From a virus, in IMG/VR virus record IMGVR_UViG_3300029892_000008, positions 1-41,992 of that record: DNA of 41,992 nt. The stretch is one strand, 5' to 3'. Both the position numbers and the translations under genes were made by a program. Positions 6,590 through 39,300 of this stretch are shown here, piece after piece (within the stretch, counting starts at the first letter, position 1; each line of letters opens with the position of its first letter). The notes beneath the pieces were generated by a model that saw only the letters and a program-made list of their open reading frames with translations, was not told where the DNA came from and made no database searches.

Positions 6590-9500
6590 GCACCAAAGAT
6601 AATCTCAGACAATATCTGGCCGATGACCCGGACTTCAACGAATATGATGCCGAGGCTCAGGAACGCATCATAAACAACATTGCGTCCAGCAAAGAATCTC
6701 TGGATTCATTCATTATGAACGAGCCAGACTTTCAATCTCTGGACGAAGAAGCCAAGTCGAGAGTGCTGGCCAATTTCGCGCCGGAGTTTTATGGCGCTAC
6801 TCCACAAGCGCAGGCGCCGGACTTATTAACCGATGTCCTGGCCTCTCGAACAACTCCAGCCGCGAAAGAACCATTAGCCCCCGTTGCCTTCGGTACGCCG
6901 GGGGGCTGGGATGTTCAGTCGATGATGGCCGGGGCAGAAGCAATGAAGATTCCCGAAGAACCCGCCGCTCCTGTTGAACCCACCGCTCCCCGTCCTCCAA
7001 GGTCGGGCTTGGATTGGCAGGCGTCCCGTGGCGGCGCAGCGCAGGAGGTCATGGAGCCGTGGGATAAGCCAATCAGCAACGTGACAAAACGTGTGGCAGC
7101 TTCGGCAGCGGACGCAGTATCCGGGGCTATGCAGCTGATGCGAGACGCGAATACCCCCGTCAAAGATAAACGCTACCAGATGTATTACGGGAACCAGCCC
7201 GAGCCTATGCTGGAAACCATTGACCGAGGTGTAGCGTATCTGCGAAACAAGAGCAAAGAATTCCTGCAAGAAACGGAAGAATACCGCAACGCGCTCAATC
7301 TTGGGGAACTGGCGGCGTATGATCTTGCTGTCGATCTTATAGATTCTGCCCCCGCCGTAATCGCAGGTTTCATTTCCGGTTCGTGGATACCCGCCACCAT
7401 TATTGGGGGCACACAGGCGCTTGTCACTAAGTACGGCCAGATGCGGGAAGCTGGACACGGCATGGACGTGTCGCTCGGCAGGTCTGTTGTGCCCGCAGTT
7501 ACATCTGGCGCCTTAGCCGGATTCACTGTGGGGAATGCGTTAGGTGTTGGTCGCACAGCAACGAAACGTATGGCCCGCGCAGCGGGGGTTGATTTTTTCG
7601 GCTCCCTGGCGTCGCAGAATGTTGAGTATGTTTCAGATTGGGCAGTCGATGAGTTTTTCCGCGAAAATCAGGGAAAGATAGGCGATCAACGTCCATACGA
7701 AGAAGTAATGAAAGACATGCTCTGGCGCTCGTTTATCAATATGGGATCTGGCCAGGTTTTTACCGGGATGCCAGAACTCATCAATCAGGCCAAACTCAAA
7801 GCCAATGGTCTGGCAGAAGTGACAGACTCTCTTGGCCGCCAATTTGTTATGCCTGAGCACATGCGAGATGGTGTCGAACAATTCGTAGACGCCATGCCAA
7901 AGGATATGCTCAGAGACATAGATCCTCAGACATTGGTGCAGGACATCGTAAGAGTCCAGGCAAGTGCTGAAATGTATGAGGCACAGCTGGCGCAGATACG
8001 GGAAACGCAGAACGCGCAACCCGATCTCTCCCCCCAGGAACGTGCTCCGAGATACCGCGGTAAATTTGAAACCGGGACAGAGATAGCCGTCGATGCCCGC
8101 GCCTTCAAAACGGATCGTCCTATCAGCACCGAAGTGAACGCCAAGGTGGTGAAGACAGAAGTTCGTTCACCCGAAGGCGGCGGGAAGCCGGAGATTTTTG
8201 TCACAGTTCAACTCGACGACAGCGGCGAAACTATAACTGTTCGCCAGAATGCTCTTGTCCAGCGGAAAGCCCCTGTCACTGGAGCCAACGGTAATCTGGA
8301 ATCACCGCATCTGGTTCTACAATTCCTCAAAGATTTCCTCGACCCCACCTTTACGACACCAACGAATCAGCTGAATTACGATCAGGCGCGTCTTGCTTTC
8401 GGTGGATTCTTCAAGATTGCCGAGAAACTGAGACGCGGCGCGTTGGCTGGAGCCAGTGAGAAGAAAGGTTACATGGCAGCGGTATGGGACGCCATGGATA
8501 AAGACCCCCAGAATCTCGCCAGAATCCTCGCACATGAACCAGGCCATCTCATCTGGAATCTCGACCCGGCGGCAATGAAAGAACTTGGTCTGGAAGGATT
8601 CCAGCCGTTCAAAGACTTTGCCACTGAACGGGCGAAAGCTGCTGATCTGTCGGAGGATATGAAAACCCAATACCTGAAATGGGTGAAAGAGAATCCTGAC
8701 GCCACAGACTCCATTGGGGAATGGTTTATCAGAACCAAATATGGTGAAGAGCTACAGGATATGTGGGATGCCTGGGCGTTGTTCAAATCCAAAGCCTCCA
8801 AGTTCAACCCGGAAACCAGACGCTGGGAAGGTGGAAGCGTGGACGAACTGATGGCCAATGCCATCTCTCTTCTCATTAACGACGCCGCCGGCATGGAGAA
8901 ACCTGATCTGGTGTGGGGAGGGAACAAGTCGTTCAACCTCCAGGACACGCAGCTCTATAAAGATTTTTACGAATACGCCGCCCAGAATCCCTCATTGCAA
9001 CAGGCGATCGACAGACTTCGGCAGAGACGGAATAATCCTGACTCTATCCTCTATACCGTTGTGCGGGGTATGACAGACTCCGACACCGCCCAAAGCATCT
9101 TCCGACAGAAGAAGCAGGAAGCTGGCGAGATGGGGATGGTTGACATGCTTCGGACTCTTTTCGAGAATGAGTTCCACCCGATTATGAAAGCTGCCGAGTA
9201 TTCCCCCGTGGCCAGAGAACTGATGGATGGAATGCTCCTTGGTAATGCCAAGGAAACAAAGTACCTGGAATCTGCGCTCCAGCCAATCATCAAGACTCTG
9301 AAAGCGGAAGGTATTGATCTGGCCGATTACAACGCCTATGCTCTGGCCAGACGTGTGAAATACGACCGTCAAAAAGATATACTCGCGTTAAAACCTGGGG
9401 AAACTGTAGAATCATTTAAAGACCTCAAAGTGCAAATGCGACTCTTTGGCGAGAAAATATTTGAAGCGATACAGAACGAGAACCCATCTATGGCGCCGGA

Positions 9501-13010: not shown

Positions 13011-13217
13011 TTACTCGCCCCTTTCTGCCGCTATCAGCGCAAGACATGTTGCGCATTTTTTTGCTCTTGATGACGTTAAAGACAACAACGCCATGGGCTT
13101 GTGTAGCCCACACTTTGTTCTCCAGCCCTTTTTAAAGTTTGCGTGGTCGGGAGAGCATCTTTCCCATGCGTGGTTTATACTCCCGCCATAGACCCGTTCC
13201 CAAAGGATGTCACTCAT
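13011..13217 (-). CDS. small cysteine-rich phage protein, unknown
   Basis: The 68-residue protein has a W-rich N-terminus (MSDILWERVYGGSINHAW). Its C-terminal half carries C36-G-L-H and a CxxC (KKCATCLAL), which together could bind one zinc. It overlaps the previous gene by a few bases and ends directly before the GTG of the next, so it is translationally coupled in the operon. No function is recognised. Confidence 0.6.
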   Translation of the reverse strand: MSDILWERVYGGSINHAWERCSPDHANFKKGWRTKCGLHKPMALLSLTSSRAKKCATCLALIAAERGE

Positions 13218-13822
13218 CCCTCGCTCCTTCCAGCCGCCGATATTGCGGCTCTTGCTATTTGCATTTCGGCGCTACCGTGCCACAAAGGGCCGCTCGGCGT
13301 TGCGCTTGCAACCAATACGTTTAGCGCCTCCCGCATCTGCTCGATCAGCGCGTCTTTGCGCTCGATCTCAGCGGCTAACAAAGACAAAAAACGATCAGCT
13401 TCGTTTCTGTCAGAGTCTTTTTCACTCTCCGATAAATCTGAATACTTCGTTGCAATCTGTCTGCGCCAACGATCGTTAGCCCAAGCAGGAATGATGACGC
13501 AGCCATCTACCTGTTTGGATTTGTAAAATAAATACTCCATCCATCCAGCCCATTGAGAATGACACAGCTCAGCAAGTTTTTCGCGCAAATCACGGGCATG
13601 CGCTGGCGCTTTCAGCCGTTCGATCTCGGCCCGCGCCTCGGCGAGCTGCTTTGCTTGGTCGCTGTAATCCTTATCCATTTCGTCGAGCATATCCGCACAA
13701 TCTGTTGTCATGTAAAAATACTCCGGCCCGTAAACCGGGTCGGGGCAACCACAGCCGCCAAAATTGTCATCGGTGAGTTTCTCAACTCTTTTTCCACACC
13801 TGCAACGCCATAACATTTTCAT
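13214..13822 (-). CDS. zinc-finger and coiled-coil phage protein with RyR-like motif
   Basis: The 202-residue protein has an N-terminal cysteine cluster (CRCGKRVEKL, GGCGCPDP) able to bind zinc, a coiled coil at about 52-85 (DQAKQLAEARAEIERLKA), then a conserved block, HSQWAGWMEYLFYKSK, WANDRWRRQI and YSDLSESEKDSDRNEADR. That block recurs in many small phage proteins and resembles the Ryr domain pattern YxxLxExxKxSxRxxA (from memory). A second helix follows (EIERKDALIEQMREAL). It overlaps its neighbours by 4 bases on both sides. Role unknown; an accessory early protein is likely. Confidence 0.6.
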   Translation of the reverse strand: MKMLWRCRCGKRVEKLTDDNFGGCGCPDPVYGPEYFYMTTDCADMLDEMDKDYSDQAKQLAEARAEIERLKAPAHARDLREKLAELCHSQWAGWMEYLFYKSKQVDGCVIIPAWANDRWRRQIATKYSDLSESEKDSDRNEADRFLSLLAAEIERKDALIEQMREALNVLVASATPSGPLWHGSAEMQIARAAISAAGRSEG

Positions 13823-14269
13823 ATAGGCTCCTTCCAGTTATCGTCCCATCCACGTTTATCGGGGGCGTATCGACAATGCTTACAAAATCCCCCTGTCCTT
13901 CCGCAGTTTTGGCAATTTTTCATTCTTTCAATAAGCTTGTCTTTTTGGGCAAGCAATTCGATAACAGTTTGCCCTTCTGGGCACAACTCGGCTAATTCAT
14001 TGTTCATTGAGTCGATTACGTGATCTAAAAAGTCTATGCGGGCCCCAGCCTCGGCGAGCTGCCGGTCTTTGTCGGCGAGCTCGCGTTCAAGCTCATTACA
14101 TTTAGCGATAGCCTCCTGTGGCGTGTAAATCCATTTTCTTTCAATCGCCTTTGCGTGGTCAGGATGCCACTGGCTATCAACGCCTTTTTTTTCGTATATC
14201 AACACACGCAGAGGAATGGTGGGCGTTATTCGCTGTTCCGCAAATAGGACAAATTAGCGTGTCACTCAT
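13819..14269 (-). CDS. double zinc-ribbon protein split by a frame change at an A8 run
   Basis: ATG at 14269, with GGGAG upstream, starts MSDTLICPICGTANNAHHSS, with a CxxC zinc knuckle, and would stop after 30 codons. At an eight-A run (minus strand, near 14,185-14,192) the sequence continues sensibly in the next frame: KKGVDSQWHPDHAKAIERKW, then a coiled coil and a second zinc ribbon, CQNCGRTGGFCKHC. The downstream frame alone has only a GTG at 14205 with no ribosome site. Loss of one A, by slippage or error, would fuse the two into one protein of about 148 residues. Function is unknown. Confidence 0.55.
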
Positions 14270-14270
14270 A

Positions 14271-14432
14271 TCAATTCTCCCTCAGATAACTAACTGATAT
14301 TGCCACCTGGCGTTCGTTGATACCAAGGCGATGCGGGCGTTTGGTTCTTGCCCACCAATATGCGTTGTTGTGCCAGATGATCGGGCGTAGATCATATTTT
14401 TCTTCCAGTTCCCATGTCCATTTCCATTTCAT
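14271..14432 (-). CDS. small tryptophan-rich phage protein, unknown
   Basis: A 53-residue frame starts at ATG 14432, two bases after the HNH stop, with AGAGAGG about 10 bases upstream. An upstream in-frame ATG (14489) lies inside the HNH gene and is less likely. The sequence is MKWKWTWELEEKYDLRPI, then WHNNAYWWARTKRPHRLG. It is basic and aromatic; no family is recognised. Confidence 0.55.
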   Translation of the reverse strand: MKWKWTWELEEKYDLRPIIWHNNAYWWARTKRPHRLGINERQVAISVSYLREN

Positions 14433-14433
14433 T

Positions 14434-14739
14434 TCAATAATTCCTCTCTTCATGTAACGAGGCGTGACATTCTTTGCACAATACCTCAAGTTCCGTCTCC
14501 GGGCACAGCAAAAATTTGTAAATCACTGCGAAAATTTCATCCCAATTCAGGACACCGTCTTTGTGGTGGACTTCCACCTTGAATTCTTTCCCCTTGGCCA
14601 TAGAAGCTTTTCGGTTGCAATTCTGGCAGGTGTTCTTCTCCCGTTTCAGCGCCGCCGCACGTTCCCTGGAACGGAGCCAGAGCTGGCGAAGGGCTTGGCG
14701 TATTCTGGATTTGGGGGTGTAATCGAGTTTCTTGCTCAC
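14434..14739 (-). CDS. HNH endonuclease
   Basis: The 101-residue protein has the HNH layout with structural zinc: CQNCNRK (C38, C41), the catalytic EVHHKDG at about 59-65, and a second zinc pair in LCKECHASLH. The basic N-terminal helix (PKSRIRQALRQLWLRSRERA) could contact DNA. It starts with GTG overlapping the polymerase stop by 4 bases (GTGA). Such genes next to phage polymerase are often free-standing homing or packaging-type nucleases; here its position inside the operon could mean either. Confidence 0.8.
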   Translation of the reverse strand: MSKKLDYTPKSRIRQALRQLWLRSRERAAALKREKNTCQNCNRKASMAKGKEFKVEVHHKDGVLNWDEIFAVIYKFLLCPETELEVLCKECHASLHEERNY

Positions 14740-16691
14740 TTCCTATACCTTTCCCCTCTCCACCCATCGGCGGCAATCGGTAATCCTTTCGCCCACGCCG
14801 GGAGTTTCACCATGGTGTCCAGGAAGATTTGAAAGTGTTCTTCAATATTGGTACACTCGTAGAACTCGACCAGCACTTCATCGTGTATTGAGGCCAGTAC
14901 TGAGAACCCGGCAGACTCAAGATTCAGCATTGCATTAGCCATCAAATCCCGCGCTACTGCCTGGGTTACGTTCTCGGCAAGACAGCCGGAGTATGTGTGG
15001 GTTTCCTGATACTTCCCATTCACCACAGTATTATAAAGTATCACCTGCTTCTGTTCCCCCCACGGGGTGGTCTTCAATCCGAGTCGGGCTTCTGGATAGT
15101 AGAGCTTCCGGCCAGAGGGGAGAGTGCAGGTGAGATAACCGCGGCTGTCCACCATGTAGCTGACTGAGCGGGCATGGAAAGAAGTGCCGGGTTCTTTTAT
15201 GGCGCTGATAGCAGCACGTTCCAGTTCGTACCACCATTCCACGATCTTCGGATTGGCCTGACGCCAGCCGGTTACAATCTCCTGCGCTTCGTCCAGGTCA
15301 ATGCTGATGCCGTAGTTGGCGGCCATGTTCGCGAAAGCCTGCTTCCCGCCTGCATAACCACAAGCCAGCACCGACACCTTCCCGATCTGACGTTCAGATT
15401 TGGTGATGTGTCCTTCTGGTTTCCGATAAATTTTACTGGCGGCTTTGATATAAAGATCTTCGTTTCGGCTATAAGCATCCAGCACCCACTGTTCCCCCGC
15501 CAACCACGCCAGCGCTCTTGCTTCGATAGCAGAGAAGTCCGCACAGAAAAAGGTCTTTCCTTCCGGGGCTTTGATGGCAGAACGTATGCAGGAAGAAAGA
15601 ACCTGAGAGAGTGATGGCCAGAGAAGATCAAAGTCTTCAGGATCACTGCCATTCAGGATCATTCTAGTTGCCAGCGGGACTTCAGATATAAGTCCTCTGG
15701 ACGGGAGGTTCTGGGGCTGGAAACCTCTACCGGCCCATCTGCCAGTAGCAGCTCCGTGGTACCGGAACAACCCTCTGGCTCTTCCGTCCGACTCCACAAT
15801 CCCTTTGAGGGCTTCGTATTTTTTGATGGAAGTTTTGCCAAGCTCGGCACGGATCTCCAACGCCCGGCGAACTTCAGACGAAACCATGATGCCCTTGAGG
15901 GTATTACAAGATAATACCTCTGCCACTGTGGCAGCTCTCAGGTCGGTCAGGTCACAGCCATTGGCCTCCAGCCACGTCAGGAATTGTTGGAGACAGGAGG
16001 GGGAGGGGACGCCGGTGAGAGTTACGAATTCGGCCTTCAGTTTCTCTTCGTAGTTCTGCCAGAGAGTGATTGCGTTGTCTACCAGTTTCGTGTCTATGGG
16101 CAAGCCAAGTTTGTTCTTCTTGATAGTAAGCTGCCAGATGGCCTGCTCGATGGTGGGTAGATTATCCAGCTGTCTGCTGGCAAGATACTGAGCTTCGACA
16201 TCTGTGCGACAGTATTCACCAACGGCTTTGAAAATCTCTACGTCGTCAATGAACGTGCCGTCCTTCTGCGGCTGGCAGATTTTCTTCATCAGCATGTCGC
16301 CCTTTTTGTCCTTCTGAATCGGAGAATTCAGAGCTTCGCACAGCTTCTCAAGGGAAAGGGGGAGAGCGTGCATGGCAGCTTTGGCCATGGTGCAATGCCA
16401 TTTAGGGTGTTCAAGTTTGAGCACACGTTCCCGAATGGCCATTTCAAATTCAGCGTTATGTGCTTCCACCCGATCAGCTTTGTAGATCAGCTGATTTGCT
16501 TCGTCCCAGGTCATCTCTGACTCAAGACCAAGCAGCAACTCAAACTTCTCGGCCCAGAGAAGCTTGGTGGGTTCGGCGTCCACCTTAATCGCCATGCAGA
16601 CAACCTCTGTCGAAGGATGCCCGGCGTATTTCCACGCGCCGCCTTCGATACCAATTCTGGATCTGGTTTCATAGTCTATCGAGACTATCAT
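14736..16691 (-). CDS. family A DNA polymerase with 3'-5' exonuclease domain
   Basis: The 651-residue replicative polymerase is of the T7-like phage type. The exonuclease domain has D6 and E8 (SIDYETRS), an AHNAEFE exo II site and YCRTD exo III, a DEDDy arrangement. Polymerase motif A is ADFSAIEARALAWLAGE with D385, motif B lies in RQIGKVSVLACGYAGG, and motif C is SIHDEVLVEF with H603-D604-E605. The exo II acidic residue is E rather than the more common D. It starts at ATG 16691 inside the stop of the 47-residue gene (ATGA). No primase or ring helicase gene is visible beside it, so priming probably comes from outside the window or from the host. Confidence 0.92.
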   Translation of the reverse strand: MIVSIDYETRSRIGIEGGAWKYAGHPSTEVVCMAIKVDAEPTKLLWAEKFELLLGLESEMTWDEANQLIYKADRVEAHNAEFEMAIRERVLKLEHPKWHCTMAKAAMHALPLSLEKLCEALNSPIQKDKKGDMLMKKICQPQKDGTFIDDVEIFKAVGEYCRTDVEAQYLASRQLDNLPTIEQAIWQLTIKKNKLGLPIDTKLVDNAITLWQNYEEKLKAEFVTLTGVPSPSCLQQFLTWLEANGCDLTDLRAATVAEVLSCNTLKGIMVSSEVRRALEIRAELGKTSIKKYEALKGIVESDGRARGLFRYHGAATGRWAGRGFQPQNLPSRGLISEVPLATRMILNGSDPEDFDLLWPSLSQVLSSCIRSAIKAPEGKTFFCADFSAIEARALAWLAGEQWVLDAYSRNEDLYIKAASKIYRKPEGHITKSERQIGKVSVLACGYAGGKQAFANMAANYGISIDLDEAQEIVTGWRQANPKIVEWWYELERAAISAIKEPGTSFHARSVSYMVDSRGYLTCTLPSGRKLYYPEARLGLKTTPWGEQKQVILYNTVVNGKYQETHTYSGCLAENVTQAVARDLMANAMLNLESAGFSVLASIHDEVLVEFYECTNIEEHFQIFLDTMVKLPAWAKGLPIAADGWRGERYRK

Positions 16692-16831
16692 CTTCGCTCC
16701 AATCTGCTGATGTATTCTTCAGCGGCTTTCAGTTGTGCTTTCAAGGTCAGGATCTCCATATCCCTGTCTCTGAGTTCCAGGCGCAGGTCGTCCATAGTTT
16801 TACTGATTATTGTCAGGATTGAGTGTTTCAT
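16688..16831 (-). CDS. 47-residue coiled-coil protein upstream of polymerase
   Basis: ATG at 16831 follows GGGAGG by 6 bases and opens MKHSILTIISKTMDDLRLEL, then one continuous charged helix (RDMEILTLKAQLKAAEEY, ending ISRLERR). The stop overlaps the polymerase start in ATGA. It lies just after the hairpin that ends the ssDNA-binding gene, so it is the first gene of the polymerase sub-unit. Function unknown; a polymerase accessory is plausible by position only. Confidence 0.6.
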   Translation of the reverse strand: MKHSILTIISKTMDDLRLELRDRDMEILTLKAQLKAAEEYISRLERR

Positions 16832-16845
16832 TCGTCTACCTCCCT

Positions 16846-16870
16846 TAAAAAGCCCGCCCGAAGGCGGGCC
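16846..16870 (-). terminator. intrinsic terminator inside the replication operon
   Basis: On the minus strand, GCCCGCC, loop TTCG and GGCGGGC form a 7-bp stem closed by a very stable C(TTCG)G tetraloop, followed by TTTTT. It lies 11 bases after the end of the ssDNA-binding protein gene and upstream of the polymerase genes. It should lower polymerase expression relative to the upstream genes unless an antiterminator acts. Confidence 0.75.
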
Positions 16871-16880
16871 TTCAGATTAG

Positions 16881-17522
16881 TTACGACATGAAGTCGTCAG
16901 GGTTTCCAGCAGTGGGGGTGTTTTCAGATAAGTCATCATCAAACACAGAAGATGCGCCTCGGGCTGGACCAAGGGGTTCGTCGTGATCTAGAAGCTGGAC
17001 CATCTGCAAAGCACACGCCACACCCTGATTGCCGCCCTGGTCGTAGGCAAAGAATGATACCTGTGCTCTGGCCCACCTGCCACCGTAAACTTCGTCTTTA
17101 TCAGATGGCTTCACTTCGACTTTGTGGTTTCTCTGCACTACGACAAGTGGTTCTTTCCTCGACCCGTCTGGTCTGTGGATAAGACGTTTCATGTTGACAA
17201 CAATGGTATCTTCGTGGCCCTTGTACACTTGGAAAGTGCCATCAGATTTCATTTTGCCCTTGCTATTGCCATCGGAAAACGGCAGATGTATGCCCTTGCC
17301 CTTGTTCAGCTGTTTCCAGGTTTCCTTTTTCGGCCACTTGGCCAGTGCTGCTTTTTCGGCAAGACTTCTCATGGCAGACAGGTCTGAATTGGCGGGAAAG
17401 AGCGCCACGACCTGATTACACAAACGTTTGTTTAAGTCTGGGACTGGCTCCAGAAGTTCTGGGAAGGCCATGCGAAAAGGTGGGGTAACAACAAAGAGTT
17501 CACTTTTCGTTTCCGTACTCAT
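16881..17522 (-). CDS. Enc34-like ssDNA-binding protein (DUF2815)
   Basis: The 213-residue protein matches the DUF2815/Enc34 ssDNA-binding family (PF10991), an OB-fold protein that coats single strands during replication. Seen here are the conserved core TWKQLNKGKGIHLPFSDG, IVVNMKRLIHRPDGS, EVYGGRWARAQVSFFAYD and GVACALQMVQLLDHDEPLG. The C-terminal tail is acidic (VFDDDLSENTPT, then GNPDDFMS), as in bacterial SSB tails that recruit partners. It overlaps the DUF2800 stop and is followed by a tetraloop terminator, which fits a need for large amounts of product. Confidence 0.8.
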   Translation of the reverse strand: MSTETKSELFVVTPPFRMAFPELLEPVPDLNKRLCNQVVALFPANSDLSAMRSLAEKAALAKWPKKETWKQLNKGKGIHLPFSDGNSKGKMKSDGTFQVYKGHEDTIVVNMKRLIHRPDGSRKEPLVVVQRNHKVEVKPSDKDEVYGGRWARAQVSFFAYDQGGNQGVACALQMVQLLDHDEPLGPARGASSVFDDDLSENTPTAGNPDDFMS

Positions 17523-18700
17523 TTTAATAATTCCTCCTGATCTTTCTGGTCGAATGCGACCGGGTTGTTGAATTCAATCGCGGGACGTTTATCGGACTCG
17601 GGAACGACTGTTGGTTTCCCTTCCTTACTTTCGAGGAGGGTGTACAGGACTGACATCAGTTCGTCTTTGTTATCCATAGTTTTGATAACCTTTTCGAGCT
17701 GTGCCGGGGACAGGAATTTCGATTGGAAAAATTCGGACGCCGCCGAGGGACAGAGTTCGCAGAATGCCTTGGCTGCGTCATCTTCCGAGGCCCAGGAGCG
17801 ATTGGTGCGGCCTCTGACAACCTTGAATCCGGGCACCTTCTGGCCGGAGAGAAGCAGAGATTCTGCACGTTCTCTGACAGCCTTCGCCCAGAGATCGAAG
17901 ATGTCCAGCTTTGGGAGTATTTCGCCAAGGTCTTCGGGGGTAAGGACTGTCGGGGTCGGGAGCTTGGCACCACCGAATACTTCACCGGCCACTGTCATGA
18001 CTTTCTCGCGCAGCTTCGGACAATCCGCTTTGGCTTTGCAGAAGTCACACCAGCTACCGGCCTTGAAAGACTTGGAACCTTTGGCCGCCGTGGCAGCCGA
18101 TTTTGTCAGTGTCTTCTCGGCCCATTTGTAAAGCTCGGCGGGGGAGGTTGTCCAGACTTTCGGTTCCCGAGAGATTCTGGGTTGCAGAATAACCAGATCC
18201 ACGGTTTCATACAGACACTCTTTCCCCATGGCACCAAGAGCATAGATCATCAGCTGGGGGTTGGCCACAGGATCAACCTCTTTGCCCTTACCATATTTCA
18301 GATCCGCGATAACCAGCTTGCCGAATTCCTGCCGAATCGTGATGTCGCATGTGCCGGAGAGATCGGGGTGAATCCAGTCCAGAGAAACTTTTTGCTCTGG
18401 TTCGACGCCGGAGTCCAGTTCTTCGGCAAGCGATCGGATGTAGTCCAGGCACCAGTCGATGTGTTCGGCCATGTCGGCGTGGATTATGAACACCCCGCCA
18501 TCTTCCCGCATGATGTCTTTGCCGATATACTCGGACGCCTTACGCCCGGTGCGGATGCACTTCTCCAACAGGAGGTGGGCGTTCGTGCCTTCTTCGGCGT
18601 AGACAGAGGACGTGTCCTCATATCTGCTTTCCAGCTTTGCCGATCCTGGGCAATTAAGCCAGCGATAAGCAGAGCTGGGCGCGATGATAGAATGGCTCAT
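17519..18700 (-). CDS. DUF2800 family PD-(D/E)XK nuclease
   Basis: The 393-residue protein belongs to DUF2800, a Cas4/RecB-like nuclease family found beside DUF2815 in phages. Seen here are the N-terminal PSSAYRWLNCPGSAKLE with EEGTNAHLLLE, the nuclease core SGTCDITIR and VIADLKYGKG (D-x-K), the NPQLMIYALG helix, and a C-terminal cysteine group (WCDFCKAKADCPKLRE) that with the N-terminal C could hold an iron-sulfur cluster. It probably acts in recombination-dependent replication with the SNF2 helicase and ssDNA-binding protein. Start and stop each overlap neighbours by 4 bases. Confidence 0.8.
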   Translation of the reverse strand: MSHSIIAPSSAYRWLNCPGSAKLESRYEDTSSVYAEEGTNAHLLLEKCIRTGRKASEYIGKDIMREDGGVFIIHADMAEHIDWCLDYIRSLAEELDSGVEPEQKVSLDWIHPDLSGTCDITIRQEFGKLVIADLKYGKGKEVDPVANPQLMIYALGAMGKECLYETVDLVILQPRISREPKVWTTSPAELYKWAEKTLTKSAATAAKGSKSFKAGSWCDFCKAKADCPKLREKVMTVAGEVFGGAKLPTPTVLTPEDLGEILPKLDIFDLWAKAVRERAESLLLSGQKVPGFKVVRGRTNRSWASEDDAAKAFCELCPSAASEFFQSKFLSPAQLEKVIKTMDNKDELMSVLYTLLESKEGKPTVVPESDKRPAIEFNNPVAFDQKDQEELLK

Positions 18701-19125
18701 TTAATGGCCTCCAGACAGGCGTTGATAACTGCTTCGTACTTCTCAGCCGGAATGGCAGAGACATTCGGGGCATTACCAATACCGTTGATGATTTCCTTGG
18801 CCACGCCAGTGCCTTTCTTGTCCATGACTTCCTTGATTGTCTTGCGAACATCATCTAAAGACACCGGAATAACGGGAGCAGTGGTCTGCTCGGGCTCAGC
18901 CGTTGTTACTGGCGCGGCAGGAGCTTCCGGTTTGGGATCGGCTTTTTTGGCCCTGGTCTTCTTTTCTTTCGGGGCTTCGGGTTCGGGTGTGGTTTCTACC
19001 ACAGGTGCTTTGTCCTCGACCACGTTCACCGTGATCTTCAGCGCCTCAATCTGCTCACGCATAAGCACCAATGCGTCGGTGAGCTTCCCCATCTGTTCGA
19101 TCATTCTGTTCATCATTTCGTCCAT
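18697..19125 (-). CDS. coiled-coil, linker and helical-tail protein, unknown
   Basis: ATG at 19125 follows GGGAGG by 6 bases; an upstream ATG at 19158 lies inside the helicase gene and is less likely. The 142-residue product has an N-terminal coiled coil (MGKLTDALVLMREQIEALKI), a disordered Pro/Ala/Lys linker of about 55 residues, and a compact C-terminal helical domain (SLDDVRKTIKEVMDKKGTG, IPAEKYEAVINACLEAI). The tail resembles a helical module common at the ends of phage replication-cassette proteins. Role unknown; it may tether partners in the recombination complex. Confidence 0.6.
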   Translation of the reverse strand: MDEMMNRMIEQMGKLTDALVLMREQIEALKITVNVVEDKAPVVETTPEPEAPKEKKTRAKKADPKPEAPAAPVTTAEPEQTTAPVIPVSLDDVRKTIKEVMDKKGTGVAKEIINGIGNAPNVSAIPAEKYEAVINACLEAIK

Positions 19126-19141
19126 TACAGACCTCCCTAAT

Positions 19142-20431
19142 TTATTTGTTGCCACCAATCGTGGCTTCGATCACTTCAATTTTCCTGGCCAACGCCCGGC
19201 CTATTTCAGCATCCACACCCGGCGTGACCAGATACTGAACCAGCACGTTATTCTTCTGGCCAATTCTGTGGCACCGGTCTTCTGCCTGCCTCATATTCCC
19301 CGGCACCCAATCCAACTCTGCGAACACTACTATATCAGACGCGGTGAGAGTTAAACCAACACCAGCCGCCTGAATGTTGCCAACGAACAGCTTCACTCTC
19401 GGGTCCGTCTGGAAGGCGTTCACGTATCCCTGCCGCTTATCAGACGGCGTAGAGCCTGTGATACAAACAGCTTCGCCCGAGAACGCCGCGGCGATAGAAT
19501 TCACCACGTCCTGATGGTACGCGAACACCACCACTTTGTCTTTCTCTTCCAACAGCATCTTTATGTGCTGAACCACTTTGGAGATTTTCGCCATGCCGCA
19601 AGCCTTTCGGGCTTGAGCTGTGGCCGACACTGGCACATGCTCCAGATCGTTCCACCACGCACCCTTCAACGGGACGCCAGCAAACATATCGTCTCCATCT
19701 AATTCAATAATCTGATGCTGCTTCTCTGGCAGCTCAGACAAAACCTCACTCTTCAGGCGCCGGAGCATCACGGGCGCCAGCTTCTCTTTGAGTTCTTCAA
19801 TATTTGTGGCGCCAAGATTGTTCCACCTTCGGACAATTTTCTTGCCGAACTGCAACCGCTCCATGTGACCACCACAATACCGGGCTTCGAAATGCTGCTT
19901 GCTCTTGGTGATCTCTGGGTTAATCGCATGAAGCATAACGAACAAATCAGCAGGGCGATTAACCAATGGTGTGCCAGTGAGGAAAACCAATCTCGGGGTT
20001 CTGGGCGCGAAGCATCTGGCTGCAGCCGTTCTATCGGCTGTGGGGTTTTTCAGGTAGTGCGCCTCGTCGAACACCACCAGATCATAAATGTGACCTTTGC
20101 TGTCACATGGTTTACCGTGAACCAGAGCATCGCCATGAGCGGAAAGAATATCATAGTTTATAATGGTGATGTTGCTATGGCGCACGGTGTCCTTCTTCCC
20201 GGAGACAATCTGTATGGAGAGGGGACGGGTAAGCCATGTTGTGAGTTCGTTATACCAATTCTGCTTCAAGGATGCCGAGCAAACTATCAAAATTCTGATA
20301 ACACCAGGGCAGGCGTTTATTAACCCAGCAACCTGGACTGTCTTCCCCAAACCCATCTCATCTGCCAGAATGGCCCGGAAATTTTCCTTGAGCCAATCCA
20401 CGCCTTGTTTCTGAAAGCTCTTGAGGTTCAT
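19142..20431 (-). CDS. SNF2/SMARCAL1-like DNA helicase or translocase
   Basis: The 429-residue protein has all main superfamily 2 motifs: Walker A DEMGLGKT (K30), DEAH at 122-125, LTGTP, and motif VI QAEDRCHRIGQ. It is close to the short SNF2 type found in phage replication cassettes, which anneals or remodels forks. I chose ATG 20431 because it overlaps the previous TGA in ATGA; an in-frame ATG at 20446 would overlap by 19 bases. It lies between the repeat protein and the DUF2800 nuclease. Confidence 0.88.
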   Translation of the reverse strand: MNLKSFQKQGVDWLKENFRAILADEMGLGKTVQVAGLINACPGVIRILIVCSASLKQNWYNELTTWLTRPLSIQIVSGKKDTVRHSNITIINYDILSAHGDALVHGKPCDSKGHIYDLVVFDEAHYLKNPTADRTAAARCFAPRTPRLVFLTGTPLVNRPADLFVMLHAINPEITKSKQHFEARYCGGHMERLQFGKKIVRRWNNLGATNIEELKEKLAPVMLRRLKSEVLSELPEKQHQIIELDGDDMFAGVPLKGAWWNDLEHVPVSATAQARKACGMAKISKVVQHIKMLLEEKDKVVVFAYHQDVVNSIAAAFSGEAVCITGSTPSDKRQGYVNAFQTDPRVKLFVGNIQAAGVGLTLTASDIVVFAELDWVPGNMRQAEDRCHRIGQKNNVLVQYLVTPGVDAEIGRALARKIEVIEATIGGNK

Positions 20432-21201
20432 TTCAGATGCCCCCATCCTGTGGCTTTTCGAACCATGTCTGTCAACATCGCATTGGCTGCGCTCCTGGCT
20501 GCACTCCAGGCTGCGCTCTGGGCTGCACTCCAGGTTGCGATCCAGGTTGCGATCCAGGCTGCTCTCTCGGCTGCGCTCTCGGCTGCGCTCCGGGCTGCGC
20601 TCTCGGCTGCGCTCCGGGCTGCGCTCCGGGCTGCGCTCTCGGCTGCACTCCAGGTTGCACTCCAGGCTGCGCTCCGGGCTGCGCTCTCGGCTGCACTCCA
20701 GGCTGCGCTCTCGGCTGCGCTCTCGGCTGCACTCCAGGCTGCGCTCCGGGCTGCGCTCTCGGCTGCACCCCAGGCTGCGCTCCGGGCTGCGCTCCGGGCT
20801 GCACTCCAGGCTGCGCTCCGCAGAGACTCTTTTCCGGTTTCTAAATACTCGACAATCAAATCGTATTCGTCTGTGTAAGGCCGGATTTTTTCAATGTGTA
20901 TAAGCGCTTGTTTTCGGGCGAATTCGCGCAGTAATTTTTCGGCATCGAAACGTGCGAGATATTTACGTTTCGTGCCCGCAATTATGTCTTTTCCCGCCAC
21001 GATCATGCCAGATATATCGACTAAATAGAGAGTTGAACCGGGCGCGTACCGTAAGGCATCTATCAGTCGTTCCGAAGCATGTAGACCGAACTCGCACAGA
21101 ACAGGTTTACCTTCTACCGTGTGCGTGGTCCCAACCCGGACCTTCCTGCCGTCGCCATAAGCAAGTTTTTTGTCGTCGGGGCTAAACCAAAATGCTAACA
21201 T
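20428..21201 (-). CDS. DUF7666-like protein with 28 SAAX repeats
   Basis: First gene of the minus-strand operon, 257 residues. The N-terminal 125 residues (YGDGRKVRVGTTHTVEGK, LCEFGLHASERLIDALRYAP, REFARKQALIHIEKI) match a phage family I associate with DUF7666. Residues about 130-240 are 28 copies of a four-residue unit, mostly S-A-A-X with X being W, R, E or Q. A four-residue period on a helix gives a slowly twisting stripe of W, R and E. A short end (MLTDMVRKATGWGHLK) follows. GGAGG lies 8 bases before ATG 21201. The role is unknown. The repeat-tail length may vary between relatives through slippage. Confidence 0.65.
   Translation of the reverse strand: MLAFWFSPDDKKLAYGDGRKVRVGTTHTVEGKPVLCEFGLHASERLIDALRYAPGSTLYLVDISGMIVAGKDIIAGTKRKYLARFDAEKLLREFARKQALIHIEKIRPYTDEYDLIVEYLETGKESLRSAAWSAARSAARSAAWGAAESAARSAAWSAAESAAESAAWSAAESAARSAAWSATWSAAESAARSAARSAAESAARSAAESAAERAAWIATWIATWSAAQSAAWSAARSAANAMLTDMVRKATGWGHLK
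20482..20817. repeat. 28 tandem 12-bp units coding for SAAX
   Basis: The array is 336 bp of degenerate 12-bp units, such as CTCCAGGCTGCG and CTCTCGGCTGCG on the plus strand. Every unit keeps the GGCTGC core and varies at the codon for the fourth residue. Because the period is a multiple of three and stop codons are absent, several frames are open across it on both strands; only the minus-strand frame has a gene context. Confidence 0.95.
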
Positions 21202-22738: not shown

Positions 22739-23025
22739 GAACTTGGGAGAGCTCAAGCGGGCTAACTTTAGGATTTACAAAAAGGGAGATATACTCAATA
22801 CCGGCATCAGGGCCTGCTGATGCCAGTATTGAACGTCTCATGCAGTCTAAGCGCTGCATGCTACAGTTTGCTTTTATCTCTGACAGCAAGATTATTGCTG
22901 TCTTGCAAGAGTATGGGGCGTGGGATGATTTTGTAGACCGTAGAACCAATATCAAAAGGTTGCTATGGATTGCAACCCTGGATATGTGGGAGGCCGACAT
23001 GTCCATGTTTCAATCCCCGATGTGA
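22726..23025 (+). CDS. small conserved-type phage protein, unknown
   Basis: A 99-residue frame starts at ATG 22726, overlapping the methyltransferase stop by 13 bases; the ribosome site is weak, so coupling is likely. An in-frame ATG at 22645 would extend it into the methyltransferase. Sequence signs are MQSKRCMLQFAFISDSKI and EYGAWDDFVDRRTNIKRLLW followed by IATLDMWEAD. The YGAWDD..D...N..RLLWIA pattern recurs in small phage proteins of unknown function. Its last codons lie within one arm of an 18-bp long-range inverted repeat. Confidence 0.65.
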   Translation: MGRLRTWESSSGLTLGFTKREIYSIPASGPADASIERLMQSKRCMLQFAFISDSKIIAVLQEYGAWDDFVDRRTNIKRLLWIATLDMWEADMSMFQSPM

Positions 23026-23228: not shown

Positions 23229-23521
23229 TGTGTCAGGTGTGTCAGTTGGTGTCAGATGAAAAAAAATATCTGTCACACAGAGACGCAGACTAGTAGCTAG
23301 TTGTAGAGGTTTGTGTCAGAAGTGTCAGCTTTTAAAAAAGTTTAGAGAAAAAATAAAAATTACTAAATTATATTATATAAAAGCTCTCGCTAAAAGCTGT
23401 CACTTCTGACACAGCTTTGGAGAACGGCGCTACAACGGCGGTAGCGTGTGACAGTTTTTTTTTCTCATCTGACACAAGCTGACACACTTCGTTCGTAGAG
23501 CGGGAAAGCTACCTGACACAC
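23229..23521. other. origin-like palindromic array of TGTCAG sites around an AT-rich core
   Basis: Nine TGTCAG sites occur: five on the plus strand on the left (23231, 23240, 23250, 23314, 23323) and four on the minus strand on the right (ending at 23411, 23474, 23484, 23518). Three TGTCAC variants join them. They flank an AT-rich core at 23335-23390. Two nested inverted repeats share one centre near 23362: an inner pair (23312-23334 with 23391-23413, 22 of 23 bp) and an outer pair of about 42 bp (23237-23278 with 23446-23487) containing an A8/A9 run. Spacers of 33 and 32 bp each hold a small hairpin. The layout fits a bidirectional replication origin with iterons, or a dual operator. Confidence 0.6.
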
Positions 23522-23627: not shown

Positions 23628-23653
23628 CTCTCAACCTCTATACATCGGGGATT

Positions 23654-23721
23654 GAAACACCCCGGACTCATCAGCATGGGCATGACCCATGGACACCCCG
23701 GTTCTGAGTCCGGGGTGTTTC
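23654..23721 (-). terminator. long cruciform-like stem after the minus-strand mini-gene
   Basis: GAAACACCCCGGACTCA (23654-23670) and TGAGTCCGGGGTGTTTC (23705-23721) form a perfect 17-bp inverted repeat. The 34-base loop itself contains CATGGG-CATGA-CCCATG. It starts 4 bases beyond the stop of the minus-strand mini-gene and is followed on that strand by TTTC, so a terminator or RNA-stabilising role is likely. Confidence 0.6.
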
Positions 23722-24328: not shown

Positions 24329-24901
24329 ATGAAGCCGCCAAAAAACCCGGAAACCCGCGCCCTGATTGAAAGGTTAAATATATATTTGCGTGACAATCCA
24401 ACATGCAGATTGGTCGATGCCGCCGCGCTGCTTGGTGTAAAAGGTTCCAGAATCAGGAAGTGGAAACAATTCGGCTGGATAGAACACACTACGCCGTTCG
24501 TCGCAAGGCAGCAGCAGGCGCAAGCTGTCGCGGCCGGCAAACAACCACTACCGCGACCAATGAAACAAAAACGAGTAAGAACACCTGTCGGGGTAGTGGC
24601 TCCCCCTCCTGAGTCGTCAGAGGATGAACCAGAACCAGACAGTATAGAAGCTCTTATCAAACGTGGCCGAGGCTTAAAAATCTCAGAGATCCGCGCCATG
24701 ATTAAAGCATACCTGATGACGCAAGTGCATGACGCAAAGGCCGTGAGCAACTACGCCGCTGGCCTGCGTGCCTTGTCTGGCGTTCAAGACGTCGAGCTTG
24801 AGGATATTTACGAGTCTGAGCAGATGATGAAGATCTACGTTCCAGAAGAGGACGCGATCCGCAAGAAAGACGTGCTTGAGGTCGATCGGATTGAATACTG
24901 A
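24329..24901 (+). CDS. small terminase subunit candidate
   Basis: The 190-residue protein starts at ATG 24329 (GTG 24323 would add two residues). The N-terminal part carries a helix-turn-helix (CRLVDAAALLGVKGSRIRKW), the middle is a Pro/Gln/Glu-rich linker, and the C-terminal half is helical (IEALIKRGRGLKISEIRAM, AVSNYAAGLRALSGVQD) with an acidic tail. This domain layout and its place directly before the large terminase fit TerS, the ring that selects phage DNA for packaging. No exact family is recognised. Confidence 0.65.
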   Translation: MKPPKNPETRALIERLNIYLRDNPTCRLVDAAALLGVKGSRIRKWKQFGWIEHTTPFVARQQQAQAVAAGKQPLPRPMKQKRVRTPVGVVAPPPESSEDEPEPDSIEALIKRGRGLKISEIRAMIKAYLMTQVHDAKAVSNYAAGLRALSGVQDVELEDIYESEQMMKIYVPEEDAIRKKDVLEVDRIEY

Positions 24902-26258
24902 CGCGATCATCAACGAGTGGCGGCCGCACAAACGACAAGAGACATTCCTGCGTTCGCCTGCGCGTGAGATTCTTTTCGGCGGTGCCCGTGGTGGTGGCAA
25001 GACTGACGCCGGGATCATCTGGGTTGCTAAGCCGGCCATTCATGGTAAGCACCGCAAGTTTCGTGGCCTTGTGCTAAGAGAGACGGCCGAGTCACTGTCT
25101 GACTGGATAGACCGGGCGCGTGACATATACGAGAAGACGGGAGGCCGCTTGGTGTCTACGCCTACGCCCAGGTTTATATGGCCATGGGGTGCGAAGATCT
25201 TCACGGGACACCTTAAAGACGTTCGCTCGATCCGCAAATACCTTGGGAGAGAGTTCCAGCGCATACTGATTGAAGAGCTGACAAGCATTGCCGACAAGGA
25301 TCTGTATGATAAGTTGCTTGGCTCTTGCCGTTCGACCGTGAAGGACTTGGAGGCACGCATAGCCAGCACGACCAATCCCGGCGGTCCCGGTCACTATTGG
25401 GTGAAGAAACGGTTTGTTGATCCAGCCCCGCCAAACGTGATCTTTCGCGAGAAGGGCAGCAGCCTGACTCGGCAGTTCATACCGTCGCTTGTGACAGATA
25501 ACCCGACGTTGTGCGACAATGACCCGCAGTATATCGAGTATCTGGACAGCCTGCCAGAGAAGCTGCATAAGGCGTGGCGCATGGGTGACTGGTCTGTGTT
25601 GGAGGGTTCATACTTCACCGAGTTCGGCAGGACTACGCATGTGTGCAAGCCGTTCGATGTGCCTGACACGTGGGCGCGTTATATAGCGATGGACTGGGGT
25701 TTCTATCCAGACCCGTGTGTCTGTCTATGGTTTGCCGTGTCTCCAGACAGCCGCCGCAAGGAAGTGTTATACCGTGAACGTCATTGGACAAGGACAATCC
25801 CTGAAGACGTAGCGAAGGATATCAGATATATTAGCCGTGATGAAAAGATTGTCATGGCCGTGGCTGACCCGTCTATGTGGGCGAGCAAGTCAGGCCCTAG
25901 TGACGCTGAGAAGATGGCCTATGAAGGTCTGCCACTGATACCTGCCGACAATAGCCGGGTTCAGGGCTGGACAAGGCTTCACGAAATGTTCAAGTTACGC
26001 AAGATAAACGATCAGGGGGACACCGCCCCGACGTTGAAGATCTTCAATACGTGTGTGAAGTCGATAGAGTCGATTGAGATTTGCCAGCACGACGAGCGCA
26101 ACCCAATGGATGTTGCAGACAACAAGCTAGACCATTGGGCGGATTGCATTAGATATTATGGCATGTCACGGTCAAGCCGTGGTAAGATTAAGGACAAGAT
26201 ACCTGACATTTTCAGTTTGAAGGCTATGCGGTATCGTAAGTCGATGCAGGAGGCGTAA
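24891..26258 (+). CDS. terminase large subunit
   Basis: The 455-residue packaging motor has Walker A FGGARGGGKTDAG (K37), a Walker B-like RILIEELTSI with the catalytic glutamate, and an RNase H-like nuclease domain with IAMDWGFYPD, AVADPSMWAS and the C-terminal KLDHWADCIRYYGM. I chose TTG 24891 because GAGG lies 9 bases upstream; TTG 24876 is an alternative. It overlaps the small terminase stop by 11 bases. It cuts concatemeric DNA and pumps it into the prohead. Confidence 0.92.
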   Translation: MNTDAIINEWRPHKRQETFLRSPAREILFGGARGGGKTDAGIIWVAKPAIHGKHRKFRGLVLRETAESLSDWIDRARDIYEKTGGRLVSTPTPRFIWPWGAKIFTGHLKDVRSIRKYLGREFQRILIEELTSIADKDLYDKLLGSCRSTVKDLEARIASTTNPGGPGHYWVKKRFVDPAPPNVIFREKGSSLTRQFIPSLVTDNPTLCDNDPQYIEYLDSLPEKLHKAWRMGDWSVLEGSYFTEFGRTTHVCKPFDVPDTWARYIAMDWGFYPDPCVCLWFAVSPDSRRKEVLYRERHWTRTIPEDVAKDIRYISRDEKIVMAVADPSMWASKSGPSDAEKMAYEGLPLIPADNSRVQGWTRLHEMFKLRKINDQGDTAPTLKIFNTCVKSIESIEICQHDERNPMDVADNKLDHWADCIRYYGMSRSSRGKIKDKIPDIFSLKAMRYRKSMQEA

Positions 26259-36386: not shown

Positions 36387-39300
36387 ATGAGCATTTACGA
36401 TGTTCTTCGCAAGATTAAGCAGGATTCAGACGAGCGTAAACTCAAGGAACAGACCGCATTAACCTCTGGAACTCAGGCGGGTATAAATGCCATGGCCGGG
36501 TTCACTGGTATGCCAGCTCCAGAGATTAAAACGCCAGGCTATGAAATAGTAACCAAGCCGGACCCGAAGCCGATGGAGTGGAACACGCTCAACGAGATCG
36601 GCGGAACCGTGGCGAGAATACCAGGTCAGGCCGCGTCGCAGATCCTTGGCATGGGCGCTTTTGTCACCGGATCAGAAGATCTTGCGAAGGCTTCAACACT
36701 AACAGGAGAACAAGCTCGTCGTGATTTTCCTTCCGCTGCCCCTCAAATTACTTCTTGGGATGATCTTAGTAAAATGTCTCTCACTGACCTTGCCAAGTAT
36801 GGACTGAGTGAGACTGGTCAGGTCGGAGCTTCTGTCTTGTCTATGGCGCTGCCAGGTATGGCAGCCAGTAAGGTATTATCTGGTCTGGGAGCTGCAACTA
36901 AATTAGTGCCGGCCATATCTAAGGTTGCCGGTTACTCCCCGAAGATTGCTAAACTGGTTACCAGTCTTGGCGGAACCGAGGCCGCAGCAGCGCACGCGGC
37001 AAGAGGTCTGTCTGGCTGGTTCGGCGGCACTATGCTTGAAGCTGGCTCGATAACTACGGACGCATACAGCGAGACTGGCGAGATGCCGGAGCGATTAAAA
37101 GTATTGCCGTGGGCGATGGCTGCTGGTGCGATGGAATATATGCCGCTCGATAGATTGCTGAGCAGATTTGCCAGCAAGGCTGGCATGGAAGTAGCAGAGC
37201 AGGCTGCCGGGAAGTCAGTTAAAGACGCAATACAATTTATAATTGATTACGCGAAGAGTTTCGGAATCGAAGCTGGTACAGAGTTTTTACAGACTCTCAC
37301 AGAAGAGTCAGCCGTCGAGAATATCAAAGGCACTCCGGCCATGCAGGCAGTTGCAAAAACTGTTACCGATCCTAACGCTCTCGCCAGAGGTATAGGCGCT
37401 GGATTGTCAGGCGGCTTTGGTGGCGTTGGGATGACCGGCATAACCGATCTGGGTGGGGCAGTGGCCAAGGCTCGTAAGCAAGTTCAGGCAGAACCCGAAG
37501 TCCGTAAACCTGTCGAACCAGCAACGCCGACTCCGGTGCAGCAACAGCCGCAACCCGAACCGATACCTATGCCGACTCAGCCGACTCAACCAACTGAGCC
37601 TGAACCGGAACAGCCGCAGGCCGCCACAACCCCACCGCCTTCTGAGGCTGTATCTGCTCCAGACGTGGGTGGATCATCGAGCGTGTCTGAGGTTAAGCTC
37701 AAGAAGATGGCGAAGAACGTCAAGGATGCCATGGAGGCTATCGGCGTTACTGATGACATGGTTCAGCAAATGACTGGCAAGCCGTTGGCTGAGATGGATA
37801 TGACAGAACTGCAACAGGTTAATGAGTTCGTTATGAACCAGGCCGCGCAGGGTAATGTTGTTGAAACTCAGCAGACTCCGGCGCCCATGCCGCCAGTTGC
37901 TCCGCCTGCCAGTCTACAGGATGCTATGGCGAGAGTTCAGCGTCAGCCTGAGATGGCTCAACCGGGTATGCCTGCCATGCCGCCCATGGCTCAGCCTGGT
38001 AATTTACAGGAAGCTATGGCAATGGCCAAGCAGCCGAGACAGCCGATGCCTCAGACTCAGGAAGTAACCAGACAGATCACGCCTGAAGATATTGCGCCGT
38101 TCGCCGATCAGCCGGAACAGGAACAAGACACCGGACTGCCGGAGCGTGGTGAGATATATGAGGTCACGGTAAACACCAAAGACGGCCCGGTTAAAAAATT
38201 TGCTCTTCGTGGCGACTCAAAAGATGGATTTGGCGACAACCTGTTTAACTCCAGAGAAGAAGCTGAATACTGGAAAAACAAAGAGAAAGAAGTTGCCGAG
38301 GCTAACGAAAAATTTAGGAAGGAAGGTCTTGAGAGAGACAGAATTGAACAGGAGAAGATTGAAAAAAAGAAAGCAGAACTGGCCGACAAAAGAGCCAAAT
38401 CTCCAATAGTTATTGATGCCGGTTACGTTAATTCTCTAGGCAATATGGATAGTGGCAGGCTTAACAAAATACTCGATGCCGAAATATCTTATGCTGGCAA
38501 AACTATGACTCGAAGGGAGCTGATTGAGAGTGGCACGTATTCCAGAAAAGAATCGAGAGAAAGAAATGGAAAACAGGAATATTATGTCGTTACTCCGAAT
38601 GACCGTTATTTGAAAATACCGAAAGTAGTCTATGACGCAGTAACCTATAATGAGGCCGTCTTGGATGAGGCCGTGCGTAGGGACGATGAAGGTATTCCGC
38701 CGTTATCTCCAGAAGATGAGGCTGCTTTGTTTGGCAAGACTCCAGATTCGCAACCCGAACGCGTTCCAGATTCCATAGTTCGGAGTCAAAAAACTCAAGC
38801 CAAAATAGACGAGCGCGAGGCTGAGCTGGACAAGATAGAGGCCGACATGGAGAAGCGTCCGGCCTACGGCGAGAGCAATACGGTAGTAACTACTGCCAGA
38901 TATGAAGAACTCAAGAAAAAATTCAAAGCAAAAACAAAAAATATTACTTCTGGTATTGACCCAGAACTGGCTGCTATTTCAGTTGAGATGGCAGCATATC
39001 ACCTTGAAGCTGGTGTAAGAAAATTTGCAGACTTCGTTAAGGCTGTAATTTCAGACGTGGGCGAAGAGTTCAGGCCGTATCTTGCTTCGGCATATATGGG
39101 CGCGAAGTATTTTCCAGGCTCAGAAAAATATAGATCCGAGATGGACGGCGAGGCCGAGATCGAAAGATTCCTTGCCGCTGAACCTACTGCCGCTGAACCT
39201 ACTGCCGCTGAACCGACCACTGCCGACATAGCGTCGAAACTTCTACCGTTTGCCGAGTCTCTTTTGACCAGAGACAAACCGGCTACTAATCCCATGCTCG

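Follow-up and report, generated by a model that had tools for sequence, protein, structure and literature searches.

The window, i.e. the whole stretch of 41,992 bp analysed here, is one entire IMG/VR record of viral DNA. It carries an array of 12 iterons of seven letters (GTGTCAG or GTGACAG) that spans positions 23230-23519 (~290 bases, Table 1). The array is intergenic and lies near terminators; a gene that ends rightward flanks it on one side and a small convergent ORF on the other. To its right follow the terminase, portal and capsid genes. The first-pass annotation had placed it between the replication operon and a late module. The operon, which starts at 21201 and runs leftward, is indeed found on the left side, but the nearest genes there are those for a C5-methyltransferase and a 126-aa ORF. 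A predicted fold of the 126-aa ORF was set aside (pLDDT 37). Two further proteins of the operon deserve mention. The 257-aa protein at its head (20428-21201, minus strand) contains a long SAAWSAARSAAE-type repeat, and a 202-aa protein (13214-13822, minus strand) gave a weak match to the RyR domain and has approximately 70 residues in common with Microcystis phage proteins.

Table 1 Features of the iteron array and its surroundings in the window
Feature	Position	Strand	Remark
Left outer iterons, three GTGTCAG at 23230, 23239, 23249	23230-23255	+	direct sequence
Left reversed iteron, CTGTCAC (GTGACAG on minus strand)	23270-23276	-	21 bp from outer group, 43 bp from inner pair
Left inner iteron pair, GTGTCAG, 9 bp spacing, at core edge	23313-23328	+	
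AT-rich core, candidate unwinding region	23329-23396	.	AT content
Right inner iteron pair, GTGACAG and GTGTCAG, 9 bp spacing	23397-23412	-	
Right reversed iteron, GTGACAG	23448-23454	+	42 bp to inner pair, 21 bp to outer group
Right outer iterons at 23469, 23479, 23513 (23513 out of register)	23469-23519	-	
Outer 42-nt inverted repeat, left arm	23237-23278	.	partner 23446-23487
Outer 42-nt inverted repeat, right arm	23446-23487	.	partner 23237-23278
Inner 23-nt inverted repeat, left arm	23312-23334	.	partner 23391-23413
Inner 23-nt inverted repeat, right arm	23391-23413	.	partner 23312-23334
Replication operon	13214-21201	-	SNF2 helicase, DUF2800 nuclease, Enc34-like SSB, family A polymerase, HNH
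Terminase large subunit	24876-26258	+	1.36 kb from array, transcribed away

A direct listing of the sites confirmed the nine TGTCAG words (23231, 23240, 23250, 23314 and 23323 on the plus strand; 23406, 23469, 23479 and 23513 on the minus strand) and the three TGTCAC variants counted in the first-pass annotation. Since TGTCAC reads as GTGACAG on the opposite strand, the orientation pattern is fully mirror-symmetric, with +++-++ to the left and --+--- to the right of a centre at 23362. The spacings are 9, 10, 21, 43 and 9 in the left arm, 75 across the centre, and 9, 42, 21, 10 and 34 in the right arm. The densest 300-bp cluster of the record holds nine TGTCAG, compared to at most four in 100 order-2 Markov shuffles of the record. 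The two nested inverted repeats with a common centre and a 56-bp core that had been described before were recovered as well. The outer one matches to 88% and the inner one, which encloses a 56-nt spacer, to 96%, with centres at 23362 and 23362.5, respectively. Taken as a whole, the segment is most symmetric about 23362.0 (score 0.496; 100 base shuffles did not exceed 0.434). Five of the six iteron pairs are centred alike to approximately 1 bp, and solely the outermost pair (23231/23518, centre 23374.5) is out of register. Between the flanking TGTCAG sites the AT content reaches 79%, compared to 50% for the record. In addition, a perfect 18-bp inverted repeat (TGTTTCAATCCCCGATGT), present in only two copies in the record (23006-23023 and 23642-23659), brackets the array.

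The arrangement of the left arm closely resembles the replication origin of P4. In the P4 ori, the repeats annotated as type 1, read as GGTGAACA, follow the same order +++-++ with spacings of 10, 11, 22, 43 and 10, so that all five spacings agree with those of the left arm within 1 bp, and the reversed iteron occupies the matching place (22 and 43 bp from its neighbours in P4). Among 151,246 random placements of six sites, none reproduced the P4 spacings to 1 bp under a null that fixes the span only. The second iteron locus of P4, crr, holds a 43+9 unit like that of the left arm, and in P4, too, AT-rich DNA lies beside the inner pair. Because the left arm matches the P4 ori and the right arm mirrors the left one except for its outermost site, the array can be read as two P4-type half-origins placed head to head. 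In P4, ori and crr are about 4.7 kb apart, whereas the two half-origins of the window would face each other in one locus.

There are also clear differences to P4. The P4 iteron word GGTGAACAG is absent from the array, and P4 possesses the alpha helicase-primase, which binds the P4 iterons, whereas an alpha-like gene was not found in the record. We therefore rejected the P4 origin proper as the identity of the array. However, since the word varies among homologous origins of E. coli prophages (see below), its mismatch excludes the P4 origin proper and not the wider class. Judged by the orientation and spacing of its iterons and by the AT-rich region next to the inner pair, the array most likely belongs to this wider class of P4-type SF3 origins.

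The first-pass annotation had suggested a search for TGTCAG arrays beside primase or initiator genes in relatives. Comparable arrays do exist in many viral contigs that are unrelated, and the neighbouring gene, if it can be recognised, is often one for an SF3 helicase/primase. We scanned viral_contigs with GTGTCAGNNGTGTCAG and, as a control, with the reversed word, each with 120 matches listed. At least seven TGTCAG within 400 bp were present in at least 17 loci among the 120 listed for GTGTCAGNNGTGTCAG and in at least 2 among the 120 listed for the reversed word. As the search word was chosen beforehand, the evidence lies in the anatomy of the arrays and not in the word that they share. Symmetry was no criterion of this first scan, and the iterons of its 16 non-redundant arrays are directed at a centre to a greater extent than in shuffled orientations (p ~0.0002). 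A scan for the symmetric pattern resulted in 53 loci compared to 13 for its control. When we searched for the spacing between reversed iteron and inner pair and allowed 54-68 bp, 30 loci were obtained, compared to 7 with the gap shifted by 20 bp; many of these loci are related, so that they represent roughly a dozen independent lineages. This unit measured 61-62 bp in 29 of the 33 matches, and the two units of the window (59 and 58 bp) are slightly below this peak.

The helicase domain PF19263 was detected in 10 of 22 array records, compared to 4 of 35 control records. Among the further loci that the spacing scan provided, 10 of 19 carried this domain, and of the records obtained with the symmetric pattern just 4 of 30 did. 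In most of the PF19263 loci checked the helicase gene adjoins the array. The products of adjoining genes comprise DUF5906, D5_N, PriCT_2 and Prim-Pol proteins, as well as VapE in one locus (L059) and DUF3987 in two (L007 and L270). The position relative to the terminase gene recurs as well: eight other loci have 1.5-2.4 kb between their array and a terminase gene that is oriented away from it, as is the case in the window. In two of these eight the SF3 gene is far from the array, namely 15 kb in G003 and 46 kb in G002 (approximately 10 kb if this record is circular). The record L265 resembles the window in the placement of its array, and none of its ORFs that were scanned encodes a recognisable initiator. 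A comparison of terminases revealed no close relatives of the window in viral_contigs. The annotated phages MW202898 and MW202496, whose polymerases are near to that of the window, encode VapE beside the polymerase; the stretches of them that were read contain no TGTCAG array. Likewise, 80 further polymerase loci contained no comparable array, nor did the stretches read of HMO-2011-like phages, which share the terminase type with the window.

The relation between iteron word and helicase can be followed in prophages of E. coli. Homologues of the array of one viral contig (L256) are present in 44 of 5,426 complete E. coli genomes, and among the ten listed of these 44 the homologous match overlaps a DUF5906 gene. 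The array consists of ten sites at the 3' end of this gene. All ten positions are kept in the alignment, whereas almost every one of them takes on a different word from type to type, giving arrays of GGTGTCAG, GGTGGCAG, GGTGACGG or GGTAACAG; arrays of the GGTGACGG type also carry some GGTGACAG/GGTGACGC. Among four near-identical DUF5906 proteins, 20 of the 28 variable columns fall into the last 56 (Fisher p ~1e-18). In all 15 sequences compared, the iteron word follows from the C-terminal type of the protein; as these sequences are related, they do not count as 15 independent events. The mosaics C11, KY203 and STEC435 narrow the association to approximately 16 C-terminal residues. The simplest reading of this covariation is that this short C-terminal segment of DUF5906 reads the iterons. 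The predicted fold of the L256 DUF5906 C-terminus (pLDDT 63) consists of helices followed by a beta hairpin and gave no significant PDB match; it is compatible, at low confidence, with a winged helix.

An array of the type of Escherichia phage vB_EcoM-606R2 is mirror-symmetric (++-++ and --+--) with similar spacings around an AT-rich core and thus resembles that of the window. As a further likeness, the related viral contigs L256 and L273 use the word GGTGTCAG. The E. coli DUF5906 prophages differ from the window in possessing ten instead of twelve iterons and in the array adjoining the 3' end of the helicase gene, and they are different phages.

A comparable organisation has been described for SaPIs, where the C-terminal domain of the Rep helicase recognises iterons directly downstream of its own gene and Rep appears to bind as two hexamers (PMC7581432). 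With SaPI Rep-type origins, as described there, the array would share the short iterons, their recognition by the C-terminal domain of a self-loading helicase and the proposed two hexamers. SaPI origins directly follow rep, whereas the array of the window is not directly downstream of an initiator helicase gene and has methyltransferase and terminase genes as neighbours.

Taken together, it is quite likely that the array is the replication origin of the phage, of the P4/SaPI kind and bound by a self-loading SF3 helicase-primase. The idea that an initiator loads to the left and to the right of a region that melts, already put forward in the first-pass annotation, gains support from the P4 geometry, from the arrays next to SF3 genes and from the concerted switching of word and protein. 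In each arm, an outer iteron group is followed approximately 21 bp further inward by the reversed iteron and after another 43 bp or so by the inner pair, which borders on the core. These iterons would be bound by the DNA-binding domain at the C-terminus of the SF3 initiator, and one hexamer might assemble per arm, in analogy to the SaPIs. The AT-rich core would then melt between the two hexamers, and the two helicases would leave in opposite directions together with the family A polymerase and the SSB of the phage, presumably giving bidirectional replication. We infer that this copy of the array is active.

The array is not adjacent to any initiator gene in the record. Pfam scans of the record detected no SF3 helicase, VapE, D5_N, DUF3987 or DnaB/primase domain, and a phmmer search with SF3 proteins from the array loci against its six frames gave no match. 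At the right end of the record there is an ORF of 1868 aa (36387-41990, plus strand) with N6-methylase-like and AAA_34 matches, in a layout that we take to be DarB-like. Because this ORF runs past the end, the record is probably a fragment, and therefore the initiator is either absent from the recovered part or supplied from elsewhere. The first option appears preferable to us, i.e. the initiator would be encoded outside the recovered record. It is unlikely that the phage possesses a complete two-armed SF3 origin without an initiator of its own and relies on a helicase-primase borrowed from a prophage or satellite that resides in the same cell and uses the same iteron word. GC skew, suggested as a check in the first-pass annotation, speaks neither for nor against an origin at the array: its cumulative minimum (21,230) coincides with divergent transcription, and the third-codon skew has no two-replichore pattern.

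The lack of a cognate initiator in the record would also fit a cis-acting regulatory or decoy array that titrates the SF3 initiator of another element, similar to an incompatibility locus or to crr, by which P4 itself maintains an iteron locus apart from its ori. However, a pure titration locus needs neither two arms nor a strongly AT-rich core, and no other candidate for an origin was noticed in the record, although this was not a genome-wide origin search. We consider this explanation improbable. An operator array, by which a transcription regulator would control the flanking early and late genes, agrees with the intergenic position near terminators. Yet the array is bordered by a gene that ends rightward and by a small convergent ORF, and no promoter-like site was reported within it. 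This argues against an operator, as do the fixed geometry that the array has in common with the P4 origin and the similar arrays beside helicase genes in unrelated phages, so that such a function is very improbable. Least probable of all is a packaging site (pac/cos) recognised by the small terminase subunit, as the distance to the terminase gene in the window and in the eight other loci might suggest, since the array of other phages neighbours an SF3 helicase and not a terminase gene, the large terminase subunit of the window has no detectable match to the terminases of these eight loci, and the covarying protein in the E. coli prophages is a helicase.

The candidate origin described here suggests that diverse phages use the fixed iteron geometry of P4 as a pair of half-origins facing each other, which is a simple layout for replication in two directions. 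Among the E. coli prophages, a switch of nearly all iterons goes along with a switch of approximately 16 residues of the initiator, and this natural series makes the rule of origin recognition by SF3 helicases directly testable. We found no description of the paired half-origin layout or of the switching of word and initiator in the literature searched, outside of which most subscription journals fall.

A scan of genome_contigs was set aside as evidence, since it yielded mostly dispersed GTGTCAG/GTTTCAG-type repeats in environmental MAGs. Examples are L314, L361 and L389, where tandem and dispersed repeats of this kind occur in MAGs of Desulfobacterota, Nitrospinota and others; these repeats probably have nothing to do with phage origins. 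In the phages L425 (~2012-2300), L426 (~7193-7694) and L424 (~10534), other short words (e.g. CCGTCTC, CTGTTAC and CTACAGC) form dense clusters, and it is possible that they are the iteron arrays of these phages themselves.
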